DNA of 36,919 nt from a virus, in IMG/VR virus record IMGVR_UViG_3300010158_000177, positions 1 to 36,919 of that record; one strand, 5' to 3'. Shown here piece by piece: positions 20,120-36,422 of the stretch; the first letter of the stretch is position 1; each line of letters opens with the position of its first letter. Made by a program: the position numbers and the translations under genes. The notes under the pieces were generated by a model. It was given only the letters and a program-made list of their open reading frames with translations, was not told the origin of the DNA and did not search any database.

Positions 20120-20146
20120 AATATAATAATTATCCGATCTCGTCAA
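20120..20146 (-). promoter_or_regulatory. Probable sigma70-type promoter (62-aa gene)
   Basis: TTGACG (20146-20141), 15-bp spacer, TATATT (20125-20120); the -35 lies within the end of the second ANL gene. Confidence 0.5.
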
Positions 20147-23430: not shown

Positions 23431-23505
23431 TGGCTGGGGATCAAGGACTCGAACCTCGAATAAAGGAGTCAGAATCCTCCGTTATACCAATTTAACTAAT
23501 CCCCA
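23431..23505 (-). tRNA. tRNA-Gln (CTG)
   Basis: Acceptor TGGGGAT/ATCCCCA, G73, encoded CCA. Anticodon loop TTCTGAC gives CTG, reading only CAG. T-arm CGAGG-TTCGAGT-CCTTG. Confidence 0.9.
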
Positions 23506-23509
23506 ATAA

Positions 23510-23587
23510 TGGTCGGTGATGAGAGATTCGAACTCCCGACCCTCTGGTCCCAAACCAGATGCGCTAGCCAGACTGCGCTAATCACCG
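23510..23587 (-). tRNA. tRNA-Pro (TGG)
   Basis: Acceptor CGGTGAT/ATCACCG, A73, encoded CCA. Anticodon loop TTTGGGA on a TCTGG/CCAGA stem, reading CCA and related codons. First gene after the promoter at 23598-23626. Confidence 0.93.
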
Positions 23588-23597
23588 TTATTGTTCT

Positions 23598-23626
23598 AGT
23601 ATATATATCTAATTTTCTTCTGTCAA
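23598..23626 (-). promoter_or_regulatory. Sigma70-type promoter (tRNA-Pro/Gln, parvulin, ANL pair)
   Basis: TTGACA (23626-23621), 17-bp spacer, TATACT (23603-23598), directly before tRNA-Pro. No promoter is evident between it and the ANL genes. Confidence 0.8.
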
Positions 23627-23649
23627 CATCTAAGTGAAATAAGTACTGA

Positions 23650-24222
23650 ATGAAAATAGCAATAACAGGACATACTTCGGGTATAGGACTTGCACTATTC
23701 AATTACTACACTAATAAAGGTGACGAAGTATTTGGATTTAGTCGATCAAATGGATATGATATTAGTTTAGAAGAAAATATTTCTAAGATAATTAAAGAAG
23801 TAAAAGATTGTGATATATTCTTTAATAATGCATATTATGAATTAGCACAGGTTAAATTATTGTATGGTCTGCATATGTTATGGCAGCAAAATGCAAAAAA
23901 ATGTATGGTTGTTACAGGCAGTAGATCCGCTGACTTTATTGATTATCGCCCATCGGGATATACACTAATGAAGTCCGCATTAGATACTGCAATTAAGCAA
24001 TGCCAGTACAGTTCTAAATATCATTTATTGAACTTTAAACCAGGATATACTAACACACCAATGGTAACTGATTTAAGTAACGATCACAAATCTATGTTTG
24101 GTCCAAAAAGTAAAACTATTCCTGATAGTATGATGAATCCAAATGATCTTGCAGAATTACTAGATTTGATCATAACAAACAATAAGTTTAAAGTAAAAGT
24201 ATTAGCAATTGATCCAAATTAA
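23650..24222 (+). CDS. Short-chain dehydrogenase/reductase (SDR)
   Basis: 190 residues. Cofactor motif GHTSGIG at 7-13 (TGxxxGIG type), NNA at 59-61, and the catalytic pair Y104-x3-K108 in YTLMK; PGYTNTPM follows as in classical SDRs (PGxxxTxM). Somewhat shorter than the usual 250 residues, losing part of the C-terminal substrate region. SDRs oxidise alcohols or reduce ketones with NAD(P)(H). A + strand island within the minus-strand tRNA/metabolic region; its stop overlaps that of the convergent radical SAM gene by 3 bp. Substrate unknown. Confidence 0.82.
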   Translation: MKIAITGHTSGIGLALFNYYTNKGDEVFGFSRSNGYDISLEENISKIIKEVKDCDIFFNNAYYELAQVKLLYGLHMLWQQNAKKCMVVTGSRSADFIDYRPSGYTLMKSALDTAIKQCQYSSKYHLLNFKPGYTNTPMVTDLSNDHKSMFGPKSKTIPDSMMNPNDLAELLDLIITNNKFKVKVLAIDPN

Positions 24223-25244
24223 GTTTCTTGATAAAAAGAACCTTTAGCACATCCAACACAAGTTGCTAACATGCCTTCTTTTATAGATTTACAACTCCAA
24301 GACTGTTCAACTTTTGGCAACCATGACATGGCTGCTTCTAAACCTAGTTCAACGGCATTGTTTTTAATATTGCCAATTGCTTGTTTAAAGTTGGTGTGTT
24401 TATAAGTGTCCGGATACTGGCCAACCCAAGCACAGGGATAAACATGTCCGTCAGCAGAAATATATATTGTCTGTCTATTTTTGGCACTGCAATCTAATTG
24501 ACGATTGGCTTTGATCCATTTTATTTCTTGCTTCTGATAATGTTTCAATGAGTCTCTGATATCAGGCTTATACTCAGTTAACTTAGGTAGTTCTAGAGTA
24601 TTATTGGGAGGCATGATCCAATAACCATCTGTATCACTCGTAAACACAAATCCTGATGTTTTAGACGACGGCTTTTCAATAAATGATTTGAACCCGTAGT
24701 TTTGACTTAATAGACGTGCTTCTTCTACTTGATGTGCATTATGTCTAAATGTAATCCATTGCCATTCTGCATACCCACTGGCTTGGATAAATGCCTGTGC
24801 ATTTGCGATTGCTTTTTTAAAATCTACTCCAATGCGATATATGTGATTGGTATCTTCCAACCCATCTATTGCAAATCGAACTTTAAGTGATTTGTCTTTA
24901 TATCTGTTGGCTAATGTTGCCCACCAATCAGTTGTCCTGACACTACCATTTGTACTAAAATCCATTAATACATGTGGCCATTTGTTGAATGAATAATCTA
25001 AAATTTCGAATATATGTTTACTAATAATGGGTTCACCGTAATTCCCATTGAAGAATATTCGTTTTAATTTTGGTAATTCTGCGTTGTCAAATATATTAGT
25101 CCAATCGTTAAATGTCATATCAACTATTGGGAAGTCAGATCTTGTCTTATATCCATAATCGTTGCGAGCACACATTGGACATGCTGCTTGACATTTAGTT
25201 GTCAATTCGACGTTTATTTGTTCTAATGTTTGTGCGATAATCAT
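24219..25244 (-). CDS. Radical SAM protein with SPASM/twitch-like C-terminus
   Basis: 341 residues from the ATG at 25244; a longer frame would run back into tRNA-Ser and is not credible. The 4Fe-4S motif is CxxxCxxC (C18, C22, C25: CQAACPMC). A GNYGEP segment (GGEP-like) and FSTNG follow, typical of the radical SAM barrel. The C-terminal region has CSAKN, ISADGHVYPCAWVG, WSCKSI and TCVGC, the cysteine layout of SPASM/twitch auxiliary clusters used in peptide modification and related chemistry. It begins 8 bp after the encoded CCA of tRNA-Ser, so it is probably on the same transcript. Substrate unknown. Confidence 0.87.
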   Translation of the reverse strand: MIIAQTLEQINVELTTKCQAACPMCARNDYGYKTRSDFPIVDMTFNDWTNIFDNAELPKLKRIFFNGNYGEPIISKHIFEILDYSFNKWPHVLMDFSTNGSVRTTDWWATLANRYKDKSLKVRFAIDGLEDTNHIYRIGVDFKKAIANAQAFIQASGYAEWQWITFRHNAHQVEEARLLSQNYGFKSFIEKPSSKTSGFVFTSDTDGYWIMPPNNTLELPKLTEYKPDIRDSLKHYQKQEIKWIKANRQLDCSAKNRQTIYISADGHVYPCAWVGQYPDTYKHTNFKQAIGNIKNNAVELGLEAAMSWLPKVEQSWSCKSIKEGMLATCVGCAKGSFYQET

Positions 25245-25252
25245 TTGTTTAG

Positions 25253-25344
25253 TGGCGGAAGGGGTGAGATTCGAACTCACGGGACGCTTTCACGTCCGAC
25301 GGTTTTCAAGACCGTTGCAATAAACCAAACTCTGCCACCCTTCC
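25253..25344 (-). tRNA. tRNA-Ser (TGA)
   Basis: 92 nt, type II with a long variable arm (GACG...CGTC). Acceptor GGAAGGG/CCCTTCC, G73, encoded CCA. Anticodon loop CTTGAAA on ACGGT/ACCGT, reading TCA. Confidence 0.95.
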
Positions 25345-25350
25345 TTTTCT

Positions 25351-25433
25351 TGGTGCGTCTGGAGGGATTTGAACCCCCACCCTTTTGAGACTAGTTCCTA
25401 AGACTAGCGTGTCTACCGTTTCACCACAGACGC
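25351..25433 (-). tRNA. tRNA-Leu (TAG)
   Basis: Type II. Acceptor GCGTCTG/CAGACGC, A73, encoded CCA. Anticodon loop CTTAGGA on CTAGT/ACTAG. Confidence 0.95.
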
Positions 25434-25442
25434 AGTATTTCT

Positions 25443-25470
25443 ATTATATATAAATTTTTTTATTTGTCAA
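25443..25470 (-). promoter_or_regulatory. Consensus sigma70-type promoter (tRNA-Leu/Ser, radical SAM)
   Basis: TTGACA (25470-25465), 16-bp spacer, TATAAT (25448-25443), both boxes perfect. Confidence 0.85.
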
Positions 25471-25854
25471 TTATGAAATTGATGGTAAAGTGATGGCTGT
25501 ACCGTCAGGGGCAAATGCTTTCCAATCCCTGGTATATTGCTGTTGTGGTCTAGGACTGAAGTCATGCCAATCTAAATAAAATCCTTGAAGTTTATCTGCA
25601 GATTGGAAATTATAAGTAAATTCGATTGTATTATCATCAATCCAAGTTCTGTCCCATGTGTAATCAGAGTAAGATATTCTCTTCCATCTGCTGGGGTCTC
25701 TAATTTTTGATATCAATGCAGCATCGGCATCATCTTTTATCAATGAATCCCTAGGATCTGCTGTAGTATCATTTGCAGAACTTATTGTTAGATGCATCCA
25801 CCAATCTTGGTCTTCTCTTTTTGTTACTGTATAAACAAGTCTGTAATTTGGCAT
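25471..25854 (-). CDS. Protein of unknown function under a late promoter
   Basis: 127 residues, rich in Trp, Tyr, Asp and beta-prone (YRLVYTVTKREDQDWWMHLTI ... WKRISYSDYTWDRTWIDDNTIEFTYNF). Looks like a compact beta-sandwich. A perfect TATAAATA late motif 20 bp upstream suggests late expression and perhaps a virion part. Ends with the promoter of tRNA-Leu just beyond its stop. No family recognised. Confidence 0.68.
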   Translation of the reverse strand: MPNYRLVYTVTKREDQDWWMHLTISSANDTTADPRDSLIKDDADAALISKIRDPSRWKRISYSDYTWDRTWIDDNTIEFTYNFQSADKLQGFYLDWHDFSPRPQQQYTRDWKAFAPDGTAITLPSIS

Positions 25855-25868
25855 TAGTATACCCTCTT

Positions 25869-26684
25869 TTAGTTATTTATATAGGATGCAAGCAGTGTCA
25901 GTAGATCTTCTTTTGATCCCACGATAAAGTTTGATTTTGGTGTAACTTTTCTATTTCTAGAAAGTTTTGCTCTTAATTCACTGAATAGTTGTGGGAAAGT
26001 ATAGTGAATCTTTGGTCTAAAATCTAAGCCATAAGTTTGCCACTTCCATTCGTCGATTGGTATCTGTTCGATGCTGCTGGCCATTGCCCAGGTCATTTCA
26101 ACTGTATAATTGAAGAAAGGTAAGTTGTATTCATCTCCTACAAATATTTCATTATAGTAATCCCATTCATTGACACCGATCCATATGTTTTCTTCGTCAT
26201 TATCGATCATGTGTTCACCGATTACTAAGATACCATTCTGACTTTTAGCATATCGACAGGCAACGATTCCGGGAATTGCTTCGATTCCAACTCCGCTAAT
26301 TTTCTTAATAATATCTTCAGCAAAGATGCTCATATATTCTTTATTGTTAATATCGATGATAGTAGGAGTAACATTAAACTTTCTACAAGTATGTAAAGCA
26401 TATGCCATTTCAATAGCGTTACCACTTGTTTTTACAATAATAGGAGTAAAATTAATACTATTTCTTTGAAAACAGTGGAATACGTAATCACTGTCTGCAC
26501 CACCGCTAAAACTTAGGAATATATTTTGGTGTTTTTCATTAATTCTAGCAGCAGTGAAATCCGCCGCCTCATGAAAATCCATCGGTTTAAATTTATAAGG
26601 ATGAAGTTTGATTTCTAACCCAATCGAAAGATCATTGAACCGGTCATGTAAATTGTGAGTAATCCAATTATTAAGAACGGCCAT
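25869..26684 (-). CDS. PP-loop ATPase (N-type ATP pyrophosphatase) domain protein
   Basis: 271 residues. PP-loop signature LSFSGGADSDYVFH with SGGADS at 60-65, followed by strands FTPIIVKTSG and VTPTIIDINN as in asparagine-synthetase, tRNA-thiolation and QueC-like enzymes. These activate a carbonyl or amide by adenylation and release pyrophosphate. No glutaminase domain and no obvious tRNA-binding domain. A distant paralogue is at 35205-36422. One-base overlap with the hydroxylase gene upstream, so both are made together. Confidence 0.82.
   Translation of the reverse strand: MAVLNNWITHNLHDRFNDLSIGLEIKLHPYKFKPMDFHEAADFTAARINEKHQNIFLSFSGGADSDYVFHCFQRNSINFTPIIVKTSGNAIEMAYALHTCRKFNVTPTIIDINNKEYMSIFAEDIIKKISGVGIEAIPGIVACRYAKSQNGILVIGEHMIDNDEENIWIGVNEWDYYNEIFVGDEYNLPFFNYTVEMTWAMASSIEQIPIDEWKWQTYGLDFRPKIHYTFPQLFSELRAKLSRNRKVTPKSNFIVGSKEDLLTLLASYINN
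25874..25881 (-). promoter_or_regulatory. T4-type late promoter, perfect TATAAATA
   Basis: Minus strand TATAAATA, 19 bp before the 127-aa gene ATG and inside the 3' end of the PP-loop gene. Confidence 0.6.
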
Positions 26685-27112
26685 TATATTGTCTTAGCAG
26701 TCCTAAATAACATATCCCAGTATGGGATGAATATACCATAGTTACAGTTGGCATTCTTATGATGCATCATGTGCCATTGCCCACTGGTAAACGGATACCA
26801 ATTGAATTTTTCATTGTGTTCTATTCTCTCTTGAATGAAAGCAGCCCATAGATAGTATGCAATCAACAACCACCAACCTACAAATATGCTCATGATAATA
26901 GTTGGGATTACTTCACTTATCCATAAATCTATGGTACTGAGCCATGTATCGTTGTATAGAAATAAATTTGACCAGTGCCATGTAACTTCATTTTTTATGA
27001 CATACCTGTGATGATCGGCGTGAATTTTATGCAAGAAAGGAATGACATGCATTAGTCTATGCATCCAATAAATCACAAATGTCCAAGCAAATAATACAAG
27101 CAAGTAGTACAT
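26684..27112 (-). CDS. Fatty acid hydroxylase/sterol desaturase-family membrane protein
   Basis: 142 residues. The eight-histidine di-iron pattern is present: H18-x3-H22 (HRLMH), H28-x2-H31-x2-HH35 (HKIHADHH), H99, and H114-x2-HH118 (HMMHH). Hydrophobic segments at ~1-17 and ~68-92 should span the membrane. Family members hydroxylate or desaturate lipid chains or carotenoids using O2. At 142 residues it is short but retains all histidine boxes. Cotranscribed with the PP-loop gene downstream; a structured non-coding region and tRNA-Gly lie upstream. Substrate unknown. Confidence 0.85.
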   Translation of the reverse strand: MYYLLVLFAWTFVIYWMHRLMHVIPFLHKIHADHHRYVIKNEVTWHWSNLFLYNDTWLSTIDLWISEVIPTIIMSIFVGWWLLIAYYLWAAFIQERIEHNEKFNWYPFTSGQWHMMHHKNANCNYGIFIPYWDMLFRTAKTI

Positions 27113-27338
27113 ATGTCTATTTAAGAGAAATGCCGATGACGTTGTTAGATATAGGTGATCTATACCATGGGTCTAAACCACTCCGTCTTACCTGCTGCCC
27201 GGCGACAGCGCCCTCATTGCGGCGGTACATTGTTTCGGTCATTGACAACAATGTACAAGAGGCACAACATGCATTGGGACAGGTGACCATCTCCCATCTG
27301 ATTCCAACACAGAGGTTGTGGCACATCCTCGATAATAT
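27113..27338 (-). ncRNA. Structured non-coding region between tRNA-Gly and hydroxylase gene
   Basis: 226 bp without a credible protein. The minus strand can form several stems: CACAAC/GTTGTG enclosing TGGGA/TCCCA, a perfect 10-bp GTACATTGTT/AACAATGTAC, GGCG-CTGT-CGCC, and GGTATAG/CTATATC. GC is higher than in the neighbouring genes. It follows tRNA-Gly on the same strand and ends at the hydroxylase start, so it is either a stable RNA or a long 5' leader. I found no tmRNA, RNase P, SRP or group I intron signature. Confidence 0.5.
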
Positions 27339-27437
27339 TGGAGCGGACGATGGGGTTCGAACCCACGACCTTCTGCTTATTAAACATACCTTAATATGCT
27401 TAGGCAAGCAGAAGCTCTACCACTGAGCTACATCCGC
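27339..27437 (-). tRNA. tRNA-Gly (GCC) with 24-nt insertion in the anticodon loop
   Basis: 99 nt. All arms are canonical: acceptor GCGGATG/CGTCCGC, T73, encoded CCA, D-arm GCTC/GAGC, T-arm GTGGG-TTCGAAC-CCCAT, anticodon stem TCTGC/GCAGA. But the loop reads TTGCC, then 24 extra nt, then AA. Removing the insert restores a normal 7-nt loop TTGCCAA. The insert begins TAAGCA and is followed by a second (T)AAGCA, so it is bounded by a 5-6 bp direct repeat, and it folds into an 8-bp hairpin (TAAGCATA/TATGTTTA, loop TTAAGG). Confidence 0.85.
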
Positions 27438-27443
27438 ACTGAA

Positions 27444-28073
27444 CTATTTATTCTTCCAGTGATCTAAATTTAGAAATTCTGCATGTCCCGTTTTAATTCC
27501 GTTTGTGTATGCTGTAATTTTATCTAATATCCTATTGGGATATAAGTTAGCGTTGTCGTAATCTTTAATGAAAACACTGACAAAATCATTCCAAATATCA
27601 TCATCTTTATTGCCGATGAATGATTCCAACAATTCACAATTCTTATGACCTGCCATCTTCCCCCATTGCGCCAATGAATGCCCCGCATCGGGGTAGAATC
27701 TCCATGAATCAATCGGCCACCGATGAAACTCTCCATTACTTGGAGCCTGCATGTAATAAACTCCTGAAGGTTTTAACACACGCATGGCTTCTAAGAAGTT
27801 CATCCAAAACATTCCGGAATGTTCATAACAACTACTACTGATCACAACATCAACTGTATTGTCTTGTATAGGCAATGTAAAAGGATGTGATACAACGTGA
27901 TCAACACCTGGACCCGCAACATAGTCGTAACCAGTATATGTTGCTGTAGCAGGTTTTAGATTGCGAATTGAACCTTGTACATCTTGGCTACCAACTTCAA
28001 CTATATTAAGATTGTCTGCTGTTACATACGTTTCGAAGAACAGTCTCGCATGATTCATTGCGCTTTTATGCAT
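27444..28073 (-). CDS. Class I SAM-dependent methyltransferase
   Basis: 209 residues. SAM motif I is IVEVGSQDVQGS at 24-35 (E/DxGxxxG), then YTGYDYVAG (acidic loop), VDVVISSSCYEH (motif IV) and MRVLKPSGVYYMQAP (LKPGG-type post-motif). This is the Methyltransf_11 pattern, used on small molecules, lipids or sugars. Lies between tRNA-Asn and tRNA-Gly on one strand, probably the same transcript. Substrate unknown. Confidence 0.85.
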   Translation of the reverse strand: MHKSAMNHARLFFETYVTADNLNIVEVGSQDVQGSIRNLKPATATYTGYDYVAGPGVDHVVSHPFTLPIQDNTVDVVISSSCYEHSGMFWMNFLEAMRVLKPSGVYYMQAPSNGEFHRWPIDSWRFYPDAGHSLAQWGKMAGHKNCELLESFIGNKDDDIWNDFVSVFIKDYDNANLYPNRILDKITAYTNGIKTGHAEFLNLDHWKNK

Positions 28074-28091
28074 TGGGTGCTTTCTAAAAAA

Positions 28092-28167
28092 TGGCTCCCG
28101 GACCTGGGCTCGAACCAGGGACCCTGTGATTAACAGTCACATGCTCTACCGACTGAGCTATCCGGAA
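28092..28167 (-). tRNA. tRNA-Asn (GTT)
   Basis: Acceptor TTCCGGA/TCCGGGA, G73, encoded CCA. Anticodon loop CTGTTAA on TGTGA/TCACA. Confidence 0.95.
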
Positions 28168-28184
28168 ACAAACTTTATATCACT

Positions 28185-28212
28185 ATTATATATCTTTATA
28201 AATGAATGTCAA
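28185..28212 (-). promoter_or_regulatory. Consensus sigma70-type promoter (tRNA-Asn, methyltransferase, tRNA-Gly)
   Basis: TTGACA (28212-28207), 16-bp spacer, TATAAT (28190-28185). Confidence 0.85.
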
Positions 28213-28240
28213 ACTAAATATGATTAAATTGGGGCAATAA

Positions 28241-29071
28241 ATGAAATTTTTTCTAGACAACCGTAGCCCAGTCCATTTACCGGAAATTTATAATACAGTT
28301 GCTAAATGGTCAGGAACTGATACATTGGTAAATTTTAATAATTATCAGCCTAATCCTTATACACTAAACAGCATTCTTTATGAATATAATGAAGTTGGAT
28401 TTAGGTCTGATAGTTTCAATGAACTTGCAGATAAGAAAATTATATTTCTTGGATGCAGCATGACTGAAGGGACAGGATTACCAAAACATCATACTTGGTC
28501 TTATCAATTGTTAGAATTAATCAAAGCAGAGACTGGCTTAAAAATTCCATATTGGAACTTGGGGATAGGCGGCTGCGGAATAGAAACTATTACTAGAATC
28601 TTTTACCACTGGGCCGATATACTTAAACCTGATTTAGTATTTGCGCTTTGGCCCTGTTATAGAAGAGAATATAAAACTAAATTTGGTCATTGGGTCACAG
28701 CATTACCTAGTGTACGACCTAATATTTTCGAAACCAACCCATTTTTAATCGAAGATACAACCATCCAATATGAGACAGAAAAGAACTTTGCAATGATTGA
28801 TCTTATGTTACAAAGAAACAATTCAACAATGATTTGGGATTTTTGGAACGAAGCCGATCAATTTATGCCAATGATGCAACTTAGGTATAAAACTTTTGAA
28901 AACAGAGTGGATCTATATAATAAAATATCAAAAAAATTACCCAATGAACCAGGCTTCTTCGTGCCAACTAGGGCAAGAGATGGAAAACATCCTGGTAGTG
29001 AATATAATAAACAATTTGCTCGACAATTGTTTGAAGAAAAGAAAGATATTATACTAAAAGCATTATCTTAA
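28241..29071 (+). CDS. SGNH/GDSL-like hydrolase
   Basis: 276 residues. Block I FLGCSMTEGTGL with Ser73 (G-x-S form), block III NLGIGGCGIET near 106-116 (Gly/Asn oxyanion residues), and block V DGKHPG near 250 with the catalytic Asp and His. The family includes esterases, lipases and O-acetyl-glycan or sulfate-ester trimming enzymes. No signal peptide. + strand island; its stop overlaps the 2OG oxygenase stop by 3 bp. An ACTAAATA motif at 28213-28220 lies upstream. Confidence 0.78.
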   Translation: MKFFLDNRSPVHLPEIYNTVAKWSGTDTLVNFNNYQPNPYTLNSILYEYNEVGFRSDSFNELADKKIIFLGCSMTEGTGLPKHHTWSYQLLELIKAETGLKIPYWNLGIGGCGIETITRIFYHWADILKPDLVFALWPCYRREYKTKFGHWVTALPSVRPNIFETNPFLIEDTTIQYETEKNFAMIDLMLQRNNSTMIWDFWNEADQFMPMMQLRYKTFENRVDLYNKISKKLPNEPGFFVPTRARDGKHPGSEYNKQFARQLFEEKKDIILKALS

Positions 29072-29517
29072 AACAACGGTGTTACGCTAAGTGCTACTCT
29101 AAATTTATCAGGATCTATTCCTTCTATACCATGTAGCATTTCTACTTTTATGCTGTGCCATTTTTTGAGAGGTAAACATTCGCTTTGTAAAGATTTATAG
29201 TCTTTATCATATATCGATGTTATCACATTATCTCCACCTAAATCTAACAAGTAATTAAATGCAATGCGTCGATCACCTTTAAACGCTGGTTTATCATAAT
29301 GTATCGGAATTTTATGATGTATCACTTGATAATATGCATAGAATTTCATTTTAAATGTGTTACGCAACCATTCTTCCAGTTCGGGATTTATTTTTTTATT
29401 CCAAAAAGTTTGGAAATCTTTAACTAGGTTTGCTTCCGCCGGTAATGAAATAATTTCATCAACCGACAAGAGTAATTCTTCTGGAATAGATGGATAATTT
29501 ATGTAATTGATATGCAT
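29068..29517 (-). CDS. 2-oxoglutarate/Fe(II) oxygenase-like protein
   Basis: 149 residues. The facial triad fits: H73-x-D75 (IHYDKPAF) and H129 (MLHGIEG), with R140 in FRVALSV as the 2-oxoglutarate-binding residue, and the usual order of strands for a double-stranded beta helix. Such enzymes hydroxylate proteins, nucleic acids or small molecules and are frequent in marine T4-like phages. A late-type AATAAATA motif lies just before its start. Substrate unknown. Confidence 0.72.
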   Translation of the reverse strand: MHINYINYPSIPEELLLSVDEIISLPAEANLVKDFQTFWNKKINPELEEWLRNTFKMKFYAYYQVIHHKIPIHYDKPAFKGDRRIAFNYLLDLGGDNVITSIYDKDYKSLQSECLPLKKWHSIKVEMLHGIEGIDPDKFRVALSVTPLF

Positions 29518-29522
29518 GAAAA

Positions 29523-29530
29523 TATTTATT
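29523..29530 (-). promoter_or_regulatory. Possible late promoter-like motif (2OG oxygenase)
   Basis: AATAAATA, 5 bp before the ATG; if active the transcript would be leaderless or start at a later ATG. Low confidence. Confidence 0.3.
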
Positions 29531-29536
29531 ATGTAT

Positions 29537-29613
<77 letters not shown>

Positions 29614-29620
29614 ACAAAAA

Positions 29621-29696
29621 TGGTGCCCGATGACGGATTCGAACCGCCGACCTACTGATTACTAATCAGTTGCTCTACCAACTGAGCTAATCGGGC
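29621..29696 (-). tRNA. tRNA-Thr (AGT)
   Basis: Acceptor GCCCGAT/ATCGGGC, A73, encoded CCA. Anticodon loop TTAGTAA. A34 is rare in bacterial tRNA apart from Arg(ACG). The anticodon stem ACTGA/TCAGT is identical to the neighbouring tRNA-Thr(TGT). Confidence 0.9.
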
Positions 29697-29698
29697 AT

Positions 29699-29774
29699 TG
29701 GTGCTGCTTGTCGGAATCGAACTGACGACCTACTGATTACAAATCAGTTGCTCTACCGGCTGAGCTAAAGCAGC
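29699..29774 (-). tRNA. tRNA-Thr (TGT)
   Basis: Acceptor TGCTGCTT-type: GCTGCTT/AAGCAGC, A73, encoded CCA. Anticodon loop TTTGTAA on ACTGA/TCAGT. Confidence 0.93.
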
Positions 29775-29779
29775 ATAAG

Positions 29780-29855
29780 TGGTGCGGGATGAGAGGGTTG
29801 AACTCCCGACATTCTGCGTGTAAAGCAGACGCTACTACCACTGAGCTAATCCCGC
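29780..29855 (-). tRNA. tRNA-Val (TAC)
   Basis: Acceptor GCGGGAT/ATCCCGC, A73, encoded CCA. Anticodon loop TTTACAC on TCTGC/GCAGA. First gene of the Val-Thr-Thr-fMet block. Confidence 0.93.
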
Positions 29856-29871
29856 ATAACTTATTATCAAT

Positions 29872-29900
29872 ACTATATATGTCAATTTGAATAATGTCAA
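29872..29900 (-). promoter_or_regulatory. Sigma70-type promoter (Val-Thr-Thr-fMet block)
   Basis: TTGACA (29900-29895), 17-bp spacer, TATAGT (29877-29872). A second TTGACA at 29885-29880 has no equally good -10. Confidence 0.7.
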
Positions 29901-29914
29901 TTGTTTTTAACGCT

Positions 29915-29922
29915 CATAAATA
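29915..29922 (+). promoter_or_regulatory. Possible late promoter-like motif (GIY-YIG gene)
   Basis: CATAAATA 8 bp before the ATG at 29931; would give a nearly leaderless mRNA. Low confidence. Confidence 0.3.
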
Positions 29923-29930
29923 AATTCAAC

Positions 29931-30251
29931 ATGTCAACAAGTTACATATATGTAATAGGCAGTACACAACCACCTTACAAGGTAGGCATTAGTCGTGATC
30001 CTGCAAAAAGACTAAAAACTTTACAAACTGGGCATCCTTTCCCTTTGCAAATACATTTCCAAAAAGAAACTGACATTTGTAAAACAAAACTATTGGAAAC
30101 TGTTATACATCGTCATCTTAAAATGCATAAGACCAACGGAGAATGGTTTGATGTTATATTATCAAATCTAATATTAGATGTTGAATATGCTATAATGCGC
30201 TATGGTGAAGATCCCATACTCAAAAGTTTACTCAAAGCACATTTAATTTAA
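29931..30251 (+). CDS. GIY-YIG-like (T5orf172/MUG113-type) nuclease domain protein
   Basis: 106 residues from the ATG at 29931 (a TTG 30 bp upstream is in frame but less likely). YIYVIGS at 5-11 and YKVGIS at ~16-21 form the GIY-YIG-like pair, followed by RDPAKRLKTLQTGHPFPL (conserved Arg), ETVIHRHLK (conserved Glu-His) and GEWF. Single-domain proteins of this type occur in phages, some as free-standing homing nucleases. It sits within the tRNA array in the opposite direction, with no space wasted (stop 2 bp from the tRNA-Trp CCA), a position typical of mobile nuclease genes. Confidence 0.75.
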   Translation: MSTSYIYVIGSTQPPYKVGISRDPAKRLKTLQTGHPFPLQIHFQKETDICKTKLLETVIHRHLKMHKTNGEWFDVILSNLILDVEYAIMRYGEDPILKSLLKAHLI

Positions 30252-30252
30252 A

Positions 30253-30328
30253 TGGCACCGGTGCTAGGATTCGAACCCAGACTTGTGGTTTTGGAGACCA
30301 TCGTGCTAACCATTAACACTACACCGAT
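30253..30328 (-). tRNA. tRNA-Trp (CCA)
   Basis: Acceptor ATCGGTG/CACCGGT, G73, encoded CCA. Anticodon loop CTCCAAA on ATGGT/ACCAC with one outer mismatch. Confidence 0.9.
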
Positions 30329-30331
30329 ATT

Positions 30332-30407
30332 TGGTACCTGCGGTTGGGATTGAACCAACGACCTTGGCCTTATGAGAGCCTCGCCACTACCTCTGTGCTA
30401 CGCAGGT
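30332..30407 (-). tRNA. tRNA with CAT anticodon (elongator Met or Ile2)
   Basis: Acceptor ACCTGCG/CGCAGGT, A73, encoded CCA. Loop CTCATAA. The 1-72 pair is closed, so it is not an initiator; whether C34 is modified to lysidine (Ile) cannot be told. D-stem has a mismatch at 10-25. Confidence 0.85.
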
Positions 30408-30414
30408 ATTTAGT

Positions 30415-30490
30415 TGGAGCACTGGGTAGGAATCGAACCTACTCGATAGAGGTTTTGCAGACCCCGGCGTTCCCATTTCGCCACCAGTGC
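30415..30490 (-). tRNA. tRNA-Cys (GCA)
   Basis: Acceptor GCACTGG/CCAGTGC, T73, encoded CCA. Anticodon loop CTGCAAA on GGGGT/ACCTC. Confidence 0.93.
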
Positions 30491-30715
30491 AGATAAGAAG
30501 CAAAGGGCTCCGTTGCGATATCTTTCGATACGACTGCCGAGTCGTACCCTTTGCTATCAGCACAGGCTTTTTCTAGTGGAACGATTCAGAGTCGATCCAG
30601 CCTATACTGGGTGTATGTAAACCTTGCTGGACGCCACTACCAGATCTCTTCATCTGTCGACTACTTTACCTATTGCTAGGTGCGTGAGGAGGCCGTTCTC
30701 ACCTCAAGGTTAGTA
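30491..30715 (-). ncRNA. Structured spacer between tRNA-Tyr and tRNA-Cys
   Basis: 225 bp, no protein and no canonical tRNA. Minus-strand stems: AGCAAAGGG/CCCTTTGCT (perfect 9 bp, 30499-30555) enclosing TACGACT-CGGC-AGTCGTA or alternatively TATC-GAAA-GATA; ACCTA-GCAA-TAGGT; CAGAT/ATCTG; TAGTGG/CCACTA enclosing TCCAGC/GCTGGA; GTGAG/CTCAC. Two GNRA-type loops suggest a folded RNA. It contains TAGAAAAAGCC, similar to the TAGAAAAAC of the elements at 31347 and 31524. Confidence 0.45.
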
Positions 30716-30800
30716 TGGTGGGGAAAGATGGATTCGAACCAACTCACCGTACAGAAAGGATTTACAGTCCTCCGCGCCTCTCCAACTGCGCCGTTTCCCC
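30716..30800 (-). tRNA. tRNA-Tyr (GTA)
   Basis: Type II with a variable arm. Acceptor GGGGAAA/TTTCCCC, A73, encoded CCA. Anticodon loop CTGTAAA. Confidence 0.93.
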
Positions 30801-30808
30801 ATGTTTTT

Positions 30809-30836
30809 ACAATAACATCTTTATGTTTGTTGTCAA
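30809..30836 (-). promoter_or_regulatory. Sigma70-type promoter (tRNA-Tyr block)
   Basis: TTGACA (30836-30831), 16-bp spacer, TATTGT (30814-30809). Confidence 0.65.
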
Positions 30837-30845
30837 TACTTATCT

Positions 30846-30919
30846 TGGTACTGTCTACTGGTATCGATCCAGTGCTAAGAGTTCCACAAACTCCCGTGCT
30901 TCCATTACACCAAGACAGC
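30846..30919 (-). tRNA. tRNA-His (GTG), without G-1 and with A73
   Basis: Acceptor GCTGTCT/AGACAGT, A73, encoded CCA; the base before position 1 is T. Anticodon loop TTGTGGA on GGAGT/ACTCT. Most bacterial tRNA-His have G-1 and C73; the A73 form is typical of many Alphaproteobacteria. Confidence 0.88.
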
Positions 30920-30924
30920 AAGTA

Positions 30925-31001
30925 TGGCGCCCCCGGAGAGATTCGAACTCCCAACCTTCGGTTTCGAAGACCGCAACTCTATCCAGTTGAGCTACGGAGG
31001 C
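30925..31001 (-). tRNA. tRNA-Arg (TCG)
   Basis: Acceptor GCCTCCG/CGGGGGC, G73, encoded CCA. Anticodon loop CTTCGAA on CGGT/ACCG. Confidence 0.93.
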
Positions 31002-31008
31002 GTTGTTG

Positions 31009-31082
31009 TGGCGGGCGTTGTGGACTCGAACCACTACCAAAAGTTTGGATCTTTCTACGCAGAACCCACTGCTATGACTCCC
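31009..31082 (-). tRNA. Second tRNA-Trp-like gene (CCA), acceptor stem imperfect
   Basis: T-arm GTGG-TTCGAGT-CCAC, G73 and CCA are normal; D-arm GCAG-TGGGTT-CTGC; anticodon loop ATCCAAA on GAAAG/CTTTT gives CCA. The acceptor GGGAGTC/AACGCCC has two mismatches (4-69 and 7-66) and the loop starts A32. It may be a decayed copy or a special tRNA; the normal tRNA-Trp is at 30253. Confidence 0.55.
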
Positions 31083-31182
31083 TAAAATCAGATGGAACTC
31101 ACGTGTTGTTCCCTATGTTGTCTGGCATTGCGACACACTTTCTAAAGCGGTATCTCCACCTTCGTGTATCCAGATCAACTAA
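31083..31182 (-). other. 100-bp spacer between tRNA-Lys(CTT) and the Trp-like tRNA
   Basis: No protein or tRNA seen. Minus strand can form AAGGTGG/CCGCTTT within ACACG/TGTGT, and CAGA/TCTG enclosing GGAAC/GTTCC. Much longer than the usual few-base gaps in this array. Confidence 0.35.
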
Positions 31183-31259
31183 TGGTAGACCGTCGCAGAT
31201 TTGAACTGCGGACATACCGCTTAAGAGGCGGTCGCTCTAACCAACTGAGCTAACGGTCC
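31183..31259 (-). tRNA. tRNA-Lys (CTT)
   Basis: Acceptor GGACCGT/ACGGTCT, A73, encoded CCA. Anticodon loop CTCTTAA on ACCGC/GCGGT. Confidence 0.93.
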
Positions 31260-31263
31260 GTAT

Positions 31264-31338
31264 TGGCGATCCTGAAGGGAATCGAACCCTCCTCATCCCG
31301 TAGACAGCGGGATCGCTTCACCAGATGCGTACAGGATC
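31264..31338 (-). tRNA. tRNA-Asp (GTC)
   Basis: Acceptor GATCCTG/CAGGATC, G73, encoded CCA. Anticodon loop CTGTCTA on TCCCG/CGGGA. Confidence 0.92.
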
Positions 31339-31346
31339 ATGTTGTA

Positions 31347-31427
31347 TTGCTCGCAGTAGGAATCGATACCTACATAGCCCCATGTTTTTCTATCAGGGCA
31401 ACTTCCTGAGTTAGTTCATGCGAGCAA
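31347..31427 (-). ncRNA. tRNA-like element with enlarged anticodon loop, no CCA
   Basis: Perfect 9-bp outer stem TTGCTCGCA/TGCGAGCAA, a D-arm AACT-AACTCAGGA-AGTT with the GG pair, a T-arm GTAGG/CCTAC with TATCGATT loop, and an anticodon arm CCCTG/TGGGG with an 11-nt loop ATAGAAAAACA. It has cloverleaf order but no readable anticodon (GAA would need A33) and no encoded CCA. It fills the gap between tRNA-Glu and tRNA-Asp exactly. Confidence 0.5.
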
Positions 31428-31430
31428 ACT

Positions 31431-31507
31431 TGGTCCGCCCACCGAGTGTCGATCTCGGTACTCTACCTTGAAAGGGTAGCGATATAGCCAGCGTTATCTA
31501 TGGGCGG
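31431..31507 (-). tRNA. tRNA-Glu (TTC)
   Basis: Acceptor CCGCCCA/TGGGCGG, A73, encoded CCA. Anticodon loop CTTTCAA on CTACC/GGTAG. T-loop ATCGACA has A54 instead of T54, also seen in the phage tRNA-His. Confidence 0.92.
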
Positions 31508-31523
31508 TAATTCTTTATAATGC

Positions 31524-31592
31524 TTTGACGAGCTGGGTCAACCTCCCACTCGGGTTTTTCTATACAGGCGGACTTCTACCGCTCTCATCAAA
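31524..31592 (-). ncRNA. Second tRNA-sized structured element
   Basis: 69 nt between tRNA-Ile and tRNA-Glu. Outer 9-bp stem TTTGATGAG/CTCGTCAAA (one G-T), inner arms GCGG-TAGAAGT-CCGC and TGGG-AGGTTGA-CCCA, and a central single strand CTGTATAGAAAAAC that matches CTGATAGAAAAAC in the element at 31347. No normal T-loop, no CCA. Confidence 0.45.
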
Positions 31593-31594
31593 TT

Positions 31595-31669
31595 TGGTTG
31601 GCCCAGGTGGCTTTGAACCACCGACCCCAGTGTTATCAGCACTGTGCTCTACCACTGAGCTATGAGCCA
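31595..31669 (-). tRNA. tRNA-Ile (GAT)
   Basis: Acceptor TGGCTCA/TGGGCCA, A73, encoded CCA. Anticodon loop CTGATAA on CAGTG/CACTG. Confidence 0.93.
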
Positions 31670-31675
31670 ATATTA

Positions 31676-31752
31676 TGGTGGACCCTCTGGGATTCGAACC
31701 CAGGACAAACGGATTAAAAGTCCGCTGCTCTAACCAACTGAGCTAAGGGTCC
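31676..31752 (-). tRNA. tRNA-Lys (TTT)
   Basis: Acceptor GGACCCT/AGGGTCC, A73, encoded CCA. Anticodon loop CTTTTAA on GCGGA/TCCGT. First tRNA of the largest block. Confidence 0.95.
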
Positions 31753-32276: not shown

Positions 32277-32528
32277 TTATTTATACACGACATCAGTTTC
32301 GATGTCAACTCTTATTTTCTTGCCCCACGAAAAAATATTCCAAACTCTTTCGTGTGACCAGTAGATCATAGTGTTGAATATAGCAGCAATACCTGCAACT
32401 GTCAACCCCGCTCTCCAATCGCCTGTTACAGCATATGTATATCCAAAATTAGCAAAAGTTAAAATGATTCTCCAAGAAACTATTTTGGCAATAGTTCTCT
32501 TATGTGTTTCGACGAAGACTTCTTTCAT
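32277..32528 (-). CDS. DUF2061-family small membrane protein
   Basis: 83 residues. The family pattern is clear: RTIAKIVSWRIILT at 11-24, then a membrane segment (FANFGYTYAVTGDW), a second one (AGLTVAGIAAIFNTMIYWSHERVWN) with YxxHERVW, and a conserved WG after it. Two membrane spans are expected. Function of the family is unknown; it occurs in bacteria and in some aquatic phages. Own sigma70-type promoter; its last codons overlap a TATAAATA late motif. Confidence 0.85.
   Translation of the reverse strand: MKEVFVETHKRTIAKIVSWRIILTFANFGYTYAVTGDWRAGLTVAGIAAIFNTMIYWSHERVWNIFSWGKKIRVDIETDVVYK
32278..32285 (-). promoter_or_regulatory. T4-type late promoter, perfect TATAAATA
   Basis: Coincides with the last two codons and stop (TAT AAA TAA) of the DUF2061 gene. 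Would transcribe the leader, terminator and 52-aa gene. Confidence 0.5.
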
Positions 32529-32565: not shown

Positions 32566-32594
32566 ATAATACTTTCTTAAAGAGAGAAAGTCAA
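32566..32594 (-). promoter_or_regulatory. Sigma70-type promoter (DUF2061 gene)
   Basis: TTGACT (32594-32589), 17-bp spacer, TATTAT (32571-32566). Confidence 0.6.
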
Positions 32595-34282
32595 CCATTA
32601 TTTTTTAATATTTCACCTATAATTGTAAGTGGATTTGTAACAGATTTATCAGGATTAAATGACCCATAATGATTACCTAATGTCATCTTTTTATAATTTT
32701 CTAAAGATTGTATGTTCTTAGATTTGAAACTTTCTTTGTTTTCGTAATGAATACTTTTTCGAGACCGCATGTCCGCAACATATTGTTCTACACCGCCTTC
32801 TAACATATTATGCATGAGTGGAATAGCAAAAACTCCACGCATTGCTGACATCGCTTCTTCAGCGGTAATAGATTTATTGTTAAAATTGCTGTATTTAATT
32901 GCCAAATCTAGATATTCTTCATACTTTCCCCAAGGACTAGTCCAACCTGTTCCCCAGGATTTCTCTTGTCCTTCGGCCAGTACATAATCTCTGAAAGGAT
33001 CGTTGCGAGATCGATTTATTTCGGTTCTTTCATTTATCCCAGGTTCGATAAACAGGGGTGTAAAAATAAAATGATCTAATAGATGTTTTCCTTCAGGTGA
33101 TAATAGCCACTCATATGTTTGATGTAATTCTTCCTTTGTCTCAGTAGGTGCACCGGCAATGTAAGAGCCACTGGTAATTACTGTATCCCCAACAGTGTCT
33201 CTAAACATATAAAGAAGATCTTTTATTTTATTTCTATCTGTCATTTTACCAATATATGGACCAACTTCTTTTTTCATTGATTCGATGCCAAAAATAACAC
33301 CAGCACAGCCAGCATCTTTAAACATCTGCGCCTGTGCTTTTGTTTTGATAGTATCTAATCTTGCATAGGACCCCCAGCGAACATCGATCCCTGTCTCATC
33401 TCGAATACGGATTAAGTATTTTAACTTTTCTGGATAGTCGTTAATCATATGATCGACTATCATATAGACTCTTGTTCCAAAATTCTCATAGTTACTGACT
33501 ATTTCATCTTTAACACTTTTATAAGTTCTACAAAATTGAGATTGTTTTTTCCCCAATGCACTGTATGTACAAAAACTACAACTAAACACGCACCCGTCTG
33601 CAATTTGCGTGATTAATGCTTCATTCTGTGCAATATGATCATTTGCTTCTGCTTTAAATCCAAAGTCACTATAATCTTTAACATCAGTTGTAACTACAAG
33701 TTTGGCGTTCTTAAATTTTCCTTTAATGACTTCGTGTGGAAGTGAACCTTCTCTGCAAAATTTGCTGATAACATCTGGGTTTGTTCCCACGACATAATAA
33801 TCAATGAATAGATTAAGGGCATTTAATCCCCATGCTCTGACATCGTTTTCATTTGTAAATTTATATTTCCTTATATCAAACCCTCCCATGATAACTGGAA
33901 AGTTTAATTTTTTTGCAATTGAACCTAAATTTAAAAGGAATTTAAAAGTACGTTTCCCCCAAAAATCACCAACATCGGGAATCGCTCGTTCAGTTTCTTC
34001 AGCATGAAATGCATAATCTAATCTATTAACACTTGTTATGAAACTGCTGCTAATACAAATTAATACAGGATCGCCTTGACTGAATTCTGTCAGAATATGT
34101 TCTAACTCTTCGGAATTAAAAAGAGTGCAATGATGCACTTGCTTTACTGTAAAACCTTCTTTCCGCATCGCATATGATAGTCGTAGCAATGCTGACGATT
34201 TAAGGAAAACATAATTTAAGTTCCAAAAATCGTCAAAGTCCTTGCCTGCATGATCACCAAAAAATATAATTTTGTTGATCAT
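32591..34282 (-). CDS. B12-binding-type radical SAM protein
   Basis: 563 residues. The N-terminal ~190 residues have the Rossmann-like layout of cobalamin-binding domains (LLRLSYAMRKEGFTVKQVH, VLICISSSF, FPVIMGG), without an obvious DxHxxG. The radical SAM 4Fe-4S motif is C231-x3-C235-x2-C238 (CVFSCSFC), followed by YMIVDHMINDYPEKL, VRWGSYARLD, GVIFGIES and SYIAGAPTET, all typical of class B radical SAM enzymes (methylation, methylthiolation, ring formation). Overlaps the upstream solute-binding-protein gene by ATGA, so it is the third gene of that operon. Substrate unknown. Confidence 0.85.
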   Translation of the reverse strand: MINKIIFFGDHAGKDFDDFWNLNYVFLKSSALLRLSYAMRKEGFTVKQVHHCTLFNSEELEHILTEFSQGDPVLICISSSFITSVNRLDYAFHAEETERAIPDVGDFWGKRTFKFLLNLGSIAKKLNFPVIMGGFDIRKYKFTNENDVRAWGLNALNLFIDYYVVGTNPDVISKFCREGSLPHEVIKGKFKNAKLVVTTDVKDYSDFGFKAEANDHIAQNEALITQIADGCVFSCSFCTYSALGKKQSQFCRTYKSVKDEIVSNYENFGTRVYMIVDHMINDYPEKLKYLIRIRDETGIDVRWGSYARLDTIKTKAQAQMFKDAGCAGVIFGIESMKKEVGPYIGKMTDRNKIKDLLYMFRDTVGDTVITSGSYIAGAPTETKEELHQTYEWLLSPEGKHLLDHFIFTPLFIEPGINERTEINRSRNDPFRDYVLAEGQEKSWGTGWTSPWGKYEEYLDLAIKYSNFNNKSITAEEAMSAMRGVFAIPLMHNMLEGGVEQYVADMRSRKSIHYENKESFKSKNIQSLENYKKMTLGNHYGSFNPDKSVTNPLTIIGEILKNNG

Positions 34283-35217
34283 TGTAATTTTAATGCCGAT
34301 CCATATTTGGTAATCATGTTACGTTCTGTTAACACTTTTTCGTGTATTGTTTGTGGATTAGATTCACAGTTAACAGAATACCATGTATTTGGTATATTAT
34401 TCAAAAAATCTGTAAATTCATTCTTGCAGATCTTAACAACAATATTTTTAATTTCTTCTACAAAATCTTTTCTTTCTTTAGGTGCATAAATTAATCCCAA
34501 AGACGAAAATTGAAAATTGGGCATTCCTAATTCAGCACCTGTTGGTACATTAGGATAATGACTATTTCTAGTTGGCAAACTAGTTGCTAATGCTTTAGAA
34601 TCAGAAACATCTTCTTGACTTTGAACTGCATAGTCAGTTTCATTACTGGCCAATGACTTACCAATAAAGGTAGCATTTTGATAGTTTATATTGAACACGT
34701 TCTTTATATCAAATTTTTCTATAAATGCTTGATTGTTTAATTTATGTAAGTTTGATTGTGTAGTACTTGCAGTATAAATCTTATCTTTGTTTTTTAAATT
34801 TTTCACTAGGTCGTCGATTGTGTTAATTGGTGAATCCTTTGGAACTACAATTGCTGAACTACTGATCAAAAGGGAAGATACAGGTATAAAATCTTTGTCT
34901 CTATCATATGAATTGGGAAACTCCAACGCATTAATAGAAAAATTACTAGTTGATCCCCAAACTAGCACATTCTCTCCATTTCTTCCTGCAATCAATGCAC
35001 GTTGATCTGCTGATTCTCCACCTGCACCTGCCAATACGCTGTAAACAAATTCATATTTTGATTGAGCAGCATTTAGCAATGAAGCAAACTTAAATCCTGA
35101 CATTCCAATGGTACCAGTGACAGGAAATCTACTATAAACAACCACTTTAGTATTTTCTGCCTGCGCTGACGATGATATCAGTAATGCTGCTAGTGCTATA
35201 GATTTTAGATTAACCAT
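34279..35217 (-). CDS. Secreted TctC/Bug-family solute-binding protein
   Basis: 312 residues with a clear signal peptide (basic N-region MVNLK, hydrophobic core, SSSAQA cleaved after Ala20). The mature part follows the TctC/Bug pattern: YSRFPVTGTIGMSG, a LAGAGGESADQRAL ligand loop, FIPVSSLLISSSAIVVPKDSPINTIDDLV, and VPTGAELGMPNFQFSSLGLIYAPK. In bacteria these periplasmic proteins bind organic acids for tripartite tricarboxylate transporters or signalling. No membrane transporter gene accompanies it. Sandwiched with 4- and 13-bp overlaps between a PP-loop gene and a radical SAM gene. Rare in a phage; codon use is as AT-rich as its neighbours, so it is not a very recent capture. Confidence 0.8.
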   Translation of the reverse strand: MVNLKSIALAALLISSSAQAENTKVVVYSRFPVTGTIGMSGFKFASLLNAAQSKYEFVYSVLAGAGGESADQRALIAGRNGENVLVWGSTSNFSINALEFPNSYDRDKDFIPVSSLLISSSAIVVPKDSPINTIDDLVKNLKNKDKIYTASTTQSNLHKLNNQAFIEKFDIKNVFNINYQNATFIGKSLASNETDYAVQSQEDVSDSKALATSLPTRNSHYPNVPTGAELGMPNFQFSSLGLIYAPKERKDFVEEIKNIVVKICKNEFTDFLNNIPNTWYSVNCESNPQTIHEKVLTERNMITKYGSALKLQ

Positions 35218-36422
35218 TTAATATTCATCCTTCCAATTTGATACTTCTTAGATAAAAATGTTTTGACAAATTGATATTTGTCTTTAATTAGTGAATACTT
35301 ATTATTAAAGTATGAGATACTTTCTTTTCTTGCCTCGCCGCCGTGATGATCACCGATAACATGTTTAACTAAACATGATTCTGGTTCTAATTTAAATGAA
35401 GTGGGTTTGGGTGCGGTAAACACAGTGGGATCCCAATCTGGATATATGATATAATTTACCATACGTTCGCTCGAGTGAGCGGAACTGTATCCTGCTTTCT
35501 TAGACAGGTCATGTTTAAACATTGTTATTTGTCTTTTGAAAAATAAATCATAAAAGTCTTTATTTGATTCCAATACACGTTTGATCATGTGGCTCTGTTT
35601 GATAGGTATCAATGGAAAATCTCGTGACCAAAAAAACAACTCACTTACGAAATCATCTGGTATTTGTTTTCTTCTCACATTCTCTAATTCACGCATTGTC
35701 ATATCATTGAATGTAAAATAAAGTGTATCTCTATTTTTTAGATCAAGTGACAGCCCTGGTTTTTCAAAACCTTTAACAATGCAAGAATTGTTTGGTGGAT
35801 TTATTGACAGAGCATTATATCTCGATAGCGAGTAACTATACATTCTTGGAATACCAACATATAATCTCTGTGTACCATTATGAAAGTTATCATCATCGAA
35901 TCCAAGAGATCCAAACGATTTTTTATAATTGTTAACTAGATCTTTACTGACATCGATTATTGTTATTTTTGTATTTGGACTAATCTCAGCAACTTTTTTT
36001 AGAATAGGAACAGCAGCATAATCATACTCTAGGTATTCACTGAGCATGTCATCCTTTATCATCTTAGAATGGTCCATCTTGCTAACAATTTCATTGTAGT
36101 TGGCAATTTGAATTTCGTCGATGAAAATATTGTTCTTTAGAAAAGTCCATAAAATTTGAGTAGAATCGCTGCCGCCACTAAAACTTAAAATAATATAATT
36201 GTATTTGTCTCTAATTTGTTGTGCTCGCATCTTATAAAGAAGACCAATATCAATGTCAGGTTCGATTTCCCAATTAATATTGTCAAAAACATCTTCATTG
36301 AAGTGGAATGTGATGGAAGAATTATAGTCTTTGTTTAACAGCATATCATCAAATGCTGACTGTCTATTTAAATAGATTTTATTATTGTAATAATAGTGCC
36401 CTTGCCGTAATAATGATAGCAT
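35205..36422 (-). CDS. PP-loop ATPase-domain protein, asparagine-synthetase-like
   Basis: 405 residues from the ATG at 36422, with GGAG 8 bp upstream. PP-loop SFSGGSDS near residues 80-87 in the context YNYIILSFSGGSDSTQILW, followed by IDEIQIANYNE and TKITIIDVSKD. The same short run (I-x-LSFSGG-x-DS) occurs in the 271-aa PP-loop protein at 25869-26684, so the two are probably related. The C-terminal ~200 residues match no domain I recognise. First gene of an operon with the secreted binding protein and the B12-type radical SAM enzyme. Confidence 0.8.
   Translation of the reverse strand: MLSLLRQGHYYYNNKIYLNRQSAFDDMLLNKDYNSSITFHFNEDVFDNINWEIEPDIDIGLLYKMRAQQIRDKYNYIILSFSGGSDSTQILWTFLKNNIFIDEIQIANYNEIVSKMDHSKMIKDDMLSEYLEYDYAAVPILKKVAEISPNTKITIIDVSKDLVNNYKKSFGSLGFDDDNFHNGTQRLYVGIPRMYSYSLSRYNALSINPPNNSCIVKGFEKPGLSLDLKNRDTLYFTFNDMTMRELENVRRKQIPDDFVSELFFWSRDFPLIPIKQSHMIKRVLESNKDFYDLFFKRQITMFKHDLSKKAGYSSAHSSERMVNYIIYPDWDPTVFTAPKPTSFKLEPESCLVKHVIGDHHGGEARKESISYFNNKYSLIKDKYQFVKTFLSKKYQIGRMNIKWLI

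Follow-up and report, generated by a model that had tools for sequence, protein, structure and literature searches.

Solute-binding proteins of the TctC/Bug type generally bind carboxylates, and orphan binding proteins of the Bug type share permeases. Expansions of the binding proteins of these tripartite tricarboxylate transporters (TTT) have been described (PMC5994714), and phages are known to carry single nutrient-uptake genes, with the phage-encoded binding protein PstS as the example (PMC6359870) and phage tctA reported as a domain match only, in SUP05 viral contigs (PMC4164917). Here we analyse a three-gene block on IMG/VR virus record IMGVR_UViG_3300010158_000177 (positions 1 to 36,919; this whole 36,919-nucleotide stretch is called the window below), in which a TctC-type protein is encoded between a PP-loop ATPase and a radical SAM enzyme. 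Sequence comparison indicates that the core of this block is the PP-loop/TctC pair, which recurs in dozens of uncultured phages, and that the radical SAM gene is an optional addition to it. An incomplete literature search turned up no earlier account of this PP-loop family, of its association with TctC, or of phage operons combining porin, TctA, binding protein and ligase.

All three open reading frames of the block are intact and lie on the minus strand between 36422 and 32591, in the order PP-loop ATPase (36422-35205, 405 aa), TctC/Bug-type solute-binding protein (35217-34279, 312 aa) and radical SAM enzyme (34282-32591, 563 aa), the first two genes overlapping by 13 nt and the last two by 4 nt (ATGA). 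The PP-loop gene starts at the ATG at 36422, which has a GGAG upstream; the mechanically called reading frame begins 12 nt earlier at a TTG. The block has a G+C content of 33%, against about 39% in the window. The original prediction, made from the letters alone, named the three genes correctly, as borne out by the Pfam matches to TctC and Radical_SAM and by the SGGSDS motif and AlphaFold fold of the PP-loop protein, and it was equally right about the overlapping operon and the intact signal peptide of TctC. Its claim of one promoter fared less clearly. An intrinsic-terminator-like hairpin (36509-36485, minus strand) and a candidate sigma-70-like promoter with an extended -10 (36468-36441, minus strand; TTGATT-16-TAAAAT) do lie upstream of the operon, but 32 promoter-like sites were found where 21 +/- 5.4 were expected, so chance is not clearly exceeded and a single promoter for the block is plausible.

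The same three genes, with the same order and overlaps, are present on a second IMG/VR contig, 3300000553_000161 (L001), with protein identities of 78% for the PP-loop protein, 59% for TctC and 79% for the radical SAM enzyme. There the block is flanked by genes other than those of the window, and the other half of the contig, read from translations, encodes ribonucleotide reductase subunits, glutaredoxin, and Hsp20-like and ClpS-like proteins. The original prediction had proposed looking for the block elsewhere and had named bacterial DNA joined on by misassembly as the finding that would refute it; because an independent phage contig has this block, overlaps included, in another context, misassembly is ruled out. 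The ratio of non-synonymous to synonymous divergence (dN/dS) between the two copies is 0.05-0.18 over the block genes, an approximate figure with dS near saturation, which limits the claim to strong purifying selection, indicated for all three genes.

To define the wider family we used a 51-residue alignment of the PP-loop core (A4), one row of which was a hand-written variant, as a search motif only. It recovered 359 PP-loop relatives from the viral contigs of IMG/VR and a single match in 84,980 prokaryote species genomes, the latter scan using short exact patterns by which more distant cellular relatives could be missed. This sole cellular relative found (L092:6827-7912, in a Bacteriovoracaceae metagenome-assembled genome) is overlapped by the next gene by 4 nt and has a chromosomal-looking context. 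Two PP-loop members searched against 50,697 phage records gave no match, no member of a 44-sequence alignment had a credible Pfam family, and one of the 44 had PHROG matches. Among structure models, BFVD contains six clear relatives of the PP-loop protein, all uncharacterised and from uncultured Caudovirales. On this distribution the family looks nearly virus-restricted. Searches by other routes added little: tblastn with the three block proteins and a relaxed repeat with the radical SAM protein gave nothing useful in the phage records, where the PP-loop candidates of a relaxed search (H67 and H68) were spurious on inspection; single-protein scans of viral contigs with TctC or the radical SAM enzyme were unproductive; the two-sequence alignments A1 and A3 recovered L001 alone; A1 led no further in genome contigs; and an alignment of TctC proteins was too diverse to serve as a query.

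The best 80 of the 359 relatives were fetched, and the locus proportions given here hold for that subset. A TctC gene lies directly adjacent to the PP-loop gene, on the same strand, in 53 of the 81 loci, which were chosen by the PP-loop motif alone, and the junctions mostly overlap or are separated by a few bases. The original prediction that such binding proteins are rare in phages has to be amended: secreted TctC proteins close to that of the window are absent from cultured-phage records, but they are common in uncultured phages that carry the PP-loop family. The set comprises 51 ordered PP-loop to TctC pairs (29 non-redundant at 70% identity, on 26 contigs), with two distinct pairs in each of several phages (L013, L015 and L072). 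The distance matrices of the two proteins are strongly correlated (Mantel r 0.80; n = 29; 0/5000 permutations). Where a control cassette gene was available (n 10-12), r was 0.82-0.86 between PP-loop and TctC proteins as opposed to 0.14-0.66 between either of them and the control; with other cassette genes corrected for, the partial correlation was 0.77-0.85, a pattern of divergence indicating that the two proteins coevolve.

The TctC assignment is secure (PF03401, E 4e-13; 50 bits against a curated cut-off of 27), and the signal peptide of the window protein, MVNLKSIALAALLISSSAQA, passes a rule-based test. By the same kind of rules, 80 of 82 TctC proteins carry a signal peptide, as do 64 of 1095 other genes, whereas all 165 PP-loop proteins lack one. 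The number of cysteines in the mature TctC protein is even in 76 of 80 cases, with two in 48, and the Cys264/Cys284 pair of the window protein is invariant within the near group. Signal peptides and even cysteine counts together point to the oxidising periplasm as the probable location of TctC. A further cluster of genes beside PP-loop or TctC genes (c2; L043:9044-10003 and 26 more) encodes binding proteins of the DctP type, known from tripartite ATP-independent periplasmic (TRAP) transporters (PF03480, E 5e-44). None of these 27 has a signal peptide and they are apparently cytosolic; despite their presence, the TRAP permease DctM had no match in 20 records.

That no transporter accompanies the block, as first claimed, is true for the 36.9-kb window and L001, but genes for TctA, TctB and porins occur in related phages. 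Of 20 larger phage records, four contain TctA (E 5e-144 to 3e-58); TctB exceeds its cut-off in one of these four, immediately before TctA, and is weak in another. In a 343,632-bp T4-like phage (G008; T4 portal E 1e-106, prohead protease E 1e-27), an apparent operon contains genes for a porin, TctA, a binding protein with a signal peptide, a PP-loop protein and a 2-oxoglutarate (2OG)-type protein of cluster c8. A second phage (G010) has the order porin, TctA, binding protein, 2OG-like gene and PP-loop gene, one gene being inserted relative to the first. Porins exceed their cut-off in 6 of 22 records, and Gram-negative porins (PF13609) are seen on giant-phage contigs (L096:5434-6618 and L097:7033-8178; also G007, G013, G017 and G021). 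The plasmid relatives of the G008 porin are all from Burkholderiales, which hints at host range and serves as a clue to that only. A PstS-like binding protein is encoded near TctA in G007; at L095:8455-9459, in a 316-kb T4-like phage, a PstS-like phosphate-type binding protein adjoins TctA. Upstream of a TctB-TctA pair, a gene at L098:3100-4677 reads like a flavin-dependent tryptophan halogenase.

The AlphaFold model of the window PP-loop protein is that of a PP-loop ATPase (predicted local distance difference test score, pLDDT, 89; predicted template modelling score, pTM, 0.91). The SGGSDS motif is intact, with S82, G83, G84, D86 and S87 invariant across the 44 aligned sequences, and the window protein reached no Pfam model. 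Among solved structures, asparagine synthetase B (Z 11.5; 282 aligned residues, 5.0 A) and beta-lactam synthetase (Z 10.6) come closest in fold; matches of this class overall have Z 10-11.5 over 270-290 residues with a root-mean-square deviation of 5-5.9, and other PP-loop ligases rank behind at Z 7-8, GMP and NAD synthetases among them at about 8. The N-terminal nucleophile (Ntn) glutaminase domain is missing, as the position of the motif at residues 82-87 of 405 leaves no room for it. By analogy with these folds, the protein may belong to a class of carboxylate-activating ligases.

The radical SAM enzyme matches Pfam Radical_SAM (E 5e-12, 46.6 bits against a cut-off of 29.5), and the residues of its CxxxCxxC motif (C231, C235 and C238) are invariant. 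Its structure model (pLDDT 77.5) matches TsrM, AprD4 and OxsB over the whole length (Z 15.5-15.6; for TsrM, Z 15.6 over 413 residues), with an N-terminal cobalamin-type domain seen at the level of fold. These whole-length matches support a predicted cobalamin-type architecture, although AprD4 has such a fold without cobalamin, so the earlier description of the enzyme as B12-type holds for the modelled fold. Membership of the PhpK P-methyltransferases (TIGR04479) is not indicated, the score being 78.5 bits, over the core only, against a cut-off of 600. Close relatives of the enzyme occur in the window, L001, L018 and L094 and more distant ones in L072, L076/L077 and L082, and all of these sit on contigs with PP-loop genes; the more distant ones were fetched through their PP-loop gene, and L094 through the radical SAM protein itself, with a PP-loop gene still nearby. 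Four neighbourhoods of plasmid radical SAM matches were inspected and contained no annotated PP-loop or TctC gene. A 2OG-oxygenase-like protein of cluster c8, encoded at 29068-29517 on the minus strand of the window, is also present in L001, L018 and L072. Its homologue in L001 and in L018 is the gene that immediately precedes the block (58% identity to L001 orfB), and it probably belongs to the same pathway; its assignment comes from a motif alignment, and a Pfam search gave no match.

Taken together, these features allow us to propose, tentatively and with somewhat less than even confidence, that the phages encode a pair of proteins for import and ligation, TctC serving uptake and the PP-loop enzyme ligation, with optional tailoring. 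In this model, TctC would be exported to the periplasm during infection, where it would bind a particular small solute (a carboxylate is most likely) and pass it to a permease of the TctAB type, which would be the host's own in the present case and phage-encoded in some relatives. The cytosolic PP-loop enzyme would then activate the solute with ATP, by carboxylate adenylation as in asparagine synthetase B and beta-lactam synthetase, and join it to an amine or other acceptor, and in some copies the radical SAM and 2OG-type enzymes would further modify the product. We infer the substrate class, the use of host TctAB and the amide-forming reaction; the purpose may be nutrient supply or the making of a modified metabolite, lipid or surface component. 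A single shared substrate would explain the linkage of a secreted TctC with a cytosolic enzyme, and the suggestion of the original prediction that an organic acid is captured in the periplasm stands as the leading idea. A more ambitious version, in which a nearly virus-restricted path leads from porin to binding protein to permease to a matched adenylating ligase and turns one organic acid into a phage-specific product, is possible but more doubtful. Several observations weigh against import and ligation. Paired genes can appear coevolved merely by moving as a unit; 22 of the 81 loci have no adjacent gene for a solute-binding protein, and 6 have DctP in place of TctC; the binding protein of the G008 operon is too divergent for the Pfam TctC model; and neither the window nor L001 nor any of 35 further PP-loop contigs, most of them short, has TctA, although for the window, which covers part of a larger genome, this is a weak point. 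The fold match of the PP-loop protein is also partial (Foldseek template modelling score about 0.3) and other PP-loop ligases follow in Z, which leaves room for other substrates and reactions.

The TctA, TctB, porin and PstS-like proteins of related phages would also suit plain nutrient capture, in which the TctAB of host or phage, redirected by TctC, would bring in a source of carbon or nitrogen and the neighbouring PP-loop enzyme would serve another pathway. Phage PstS offers a precedent for phosphate (PMC6359870), but the 29 non-redundant overlapping or adjacent pairs, and a coevolution tighter than that with other cassette genes, make this rather unlikely. It is conceivable too that the PP-loop, radical SAM, 2OG and fatty acid hydroxylase enzymes remodel lipopolysaccharide, lipid or the virion, with TctC as a periplasmic carrier of precursors; cassettes with fatty acid hydroxylase, 2OG-like and desaturase-like proteins often stand beside structural genes, and that of L001 has a nucleotide-sugar epimerase and a carbamoyltransferase. 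However, TctA/TctB and porin partners indicate inward transport, and we regard such remodelling as improbable.

The original prediction also offered superinfection exclusion and sensing. Exclusion, or the masking of host receptors by secreted TctC and phage porins, would accord with the secretion of the one and the phage origin of the other, but leaves the recurrent pairing with a cytosolic ligase and a TctA permease unexplained; we found it unsupported and give it very little weight. Proteins of the TctC type can act as sensors in bacteria, as is generally known, and TctC could by extension feed a regulatory pathway as a ligand sensor; yet no sensor kinase or regulator was noticed beside the pair in the listed loci, where no model-based search for them was made, and with no evidence found for it this has the slimmest chance of all.

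Overall, the window represents part of a T4-like giant phage, with a tail sheath stabiliser gene recognised by Pfam, and the protein encoded at 9493-10770 has relatives in Agrobacterium phage Atu_ph07 and other giant phages. Directly downstream of the block lies a gene for a small DUF2061 membrane protein (32277-32528, minus strand; PF09834, E 3e-15); the family also adjoins PP-loop genes at 7 other loci, and whether this gene is a member of the unit is uncertain. A second PP-loop protein, of a 271 aa class (25869-26684, minus strand; SGGADS), is linked by sequence to the same superfamily, and its gene overlaps that of a fatty acid hydroxylase-like membrane enzyme (26684-27112, minus strand; PF04116, E 3e-16). 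The hydroxylase (c4) is found in 17 loci, and its association with a PP-loop gene is common among related phages. A recurrent cassette (L013, L018, L028 and others) combines a fatty acid hydroxylase and two 2OG-type proteins with several paralogues of the PP-loop protein, and in several loci the cassette adjoins T4 neck genes (gp15 relatives). The 20 tRNA genes of the window form a cluster (23431-31752) interleaved with SDR-like, SPASM radical SAM, methyltransferase and GDSL-like hydrolase genes, and a tandem pair of overlapping AMP-binding (acyl-adenylating) enzymes, unusual in a phage, is encoded at 20130-23077.

Compared with the TTT (TctABC) and Bug proteins of Bordetella and other Burkholderiales, the phage proteins share the TctC fold and signal peptide, and related phages have TctA and TctB. 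They differ in being encoded by viruses, in their high divergence (59% identity between the two nearest copies) and in their recurrent pairing with a ligase-type PP-loop enzyme, and, unlike in a complete TTT, no TctA permease is encoded with TctC in the window or L001, both of which are fragments. Asparagine synthetase B, beta-lactam synthetase and carbapenam synthetase provide the closest solved folds over most of the PP-loop protein's length, and share its intact SGGxDS, whereas the phage enzyme is without the glutaminase domain, has about 8-10% identity to them, appears nearly virus-restricted and has no Pfam entry. With TsrM, OxsB and AprD4 the radical SAM enzyme shares CxxxCxxC and, as modelled, a whole-length fold, while its similarity to PhpK is confined to the SAM core and falls far under the family cut-off. 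A large, unannotated and, it seems, nearly virus-restricted PP-loop family is thereby defined, with a testable handle on it: identifying what a given TctC binds should show what its paired PP-loop enzyme acts on. The cyanophage PstS is likewise a phage-encoded periplasmic binding protein without a permease of its own, presumably using that of the host; here the protein family and solute are different, and some phages add a permease and porin. To our knowledge PstS is not a partner of any ligase. If our proposal is correct, a binding protein and a matched ligase, in some phages together with permease and porin, would amount to a viral rewiring of how the host imports solutes, from outer membrane to cytosol.

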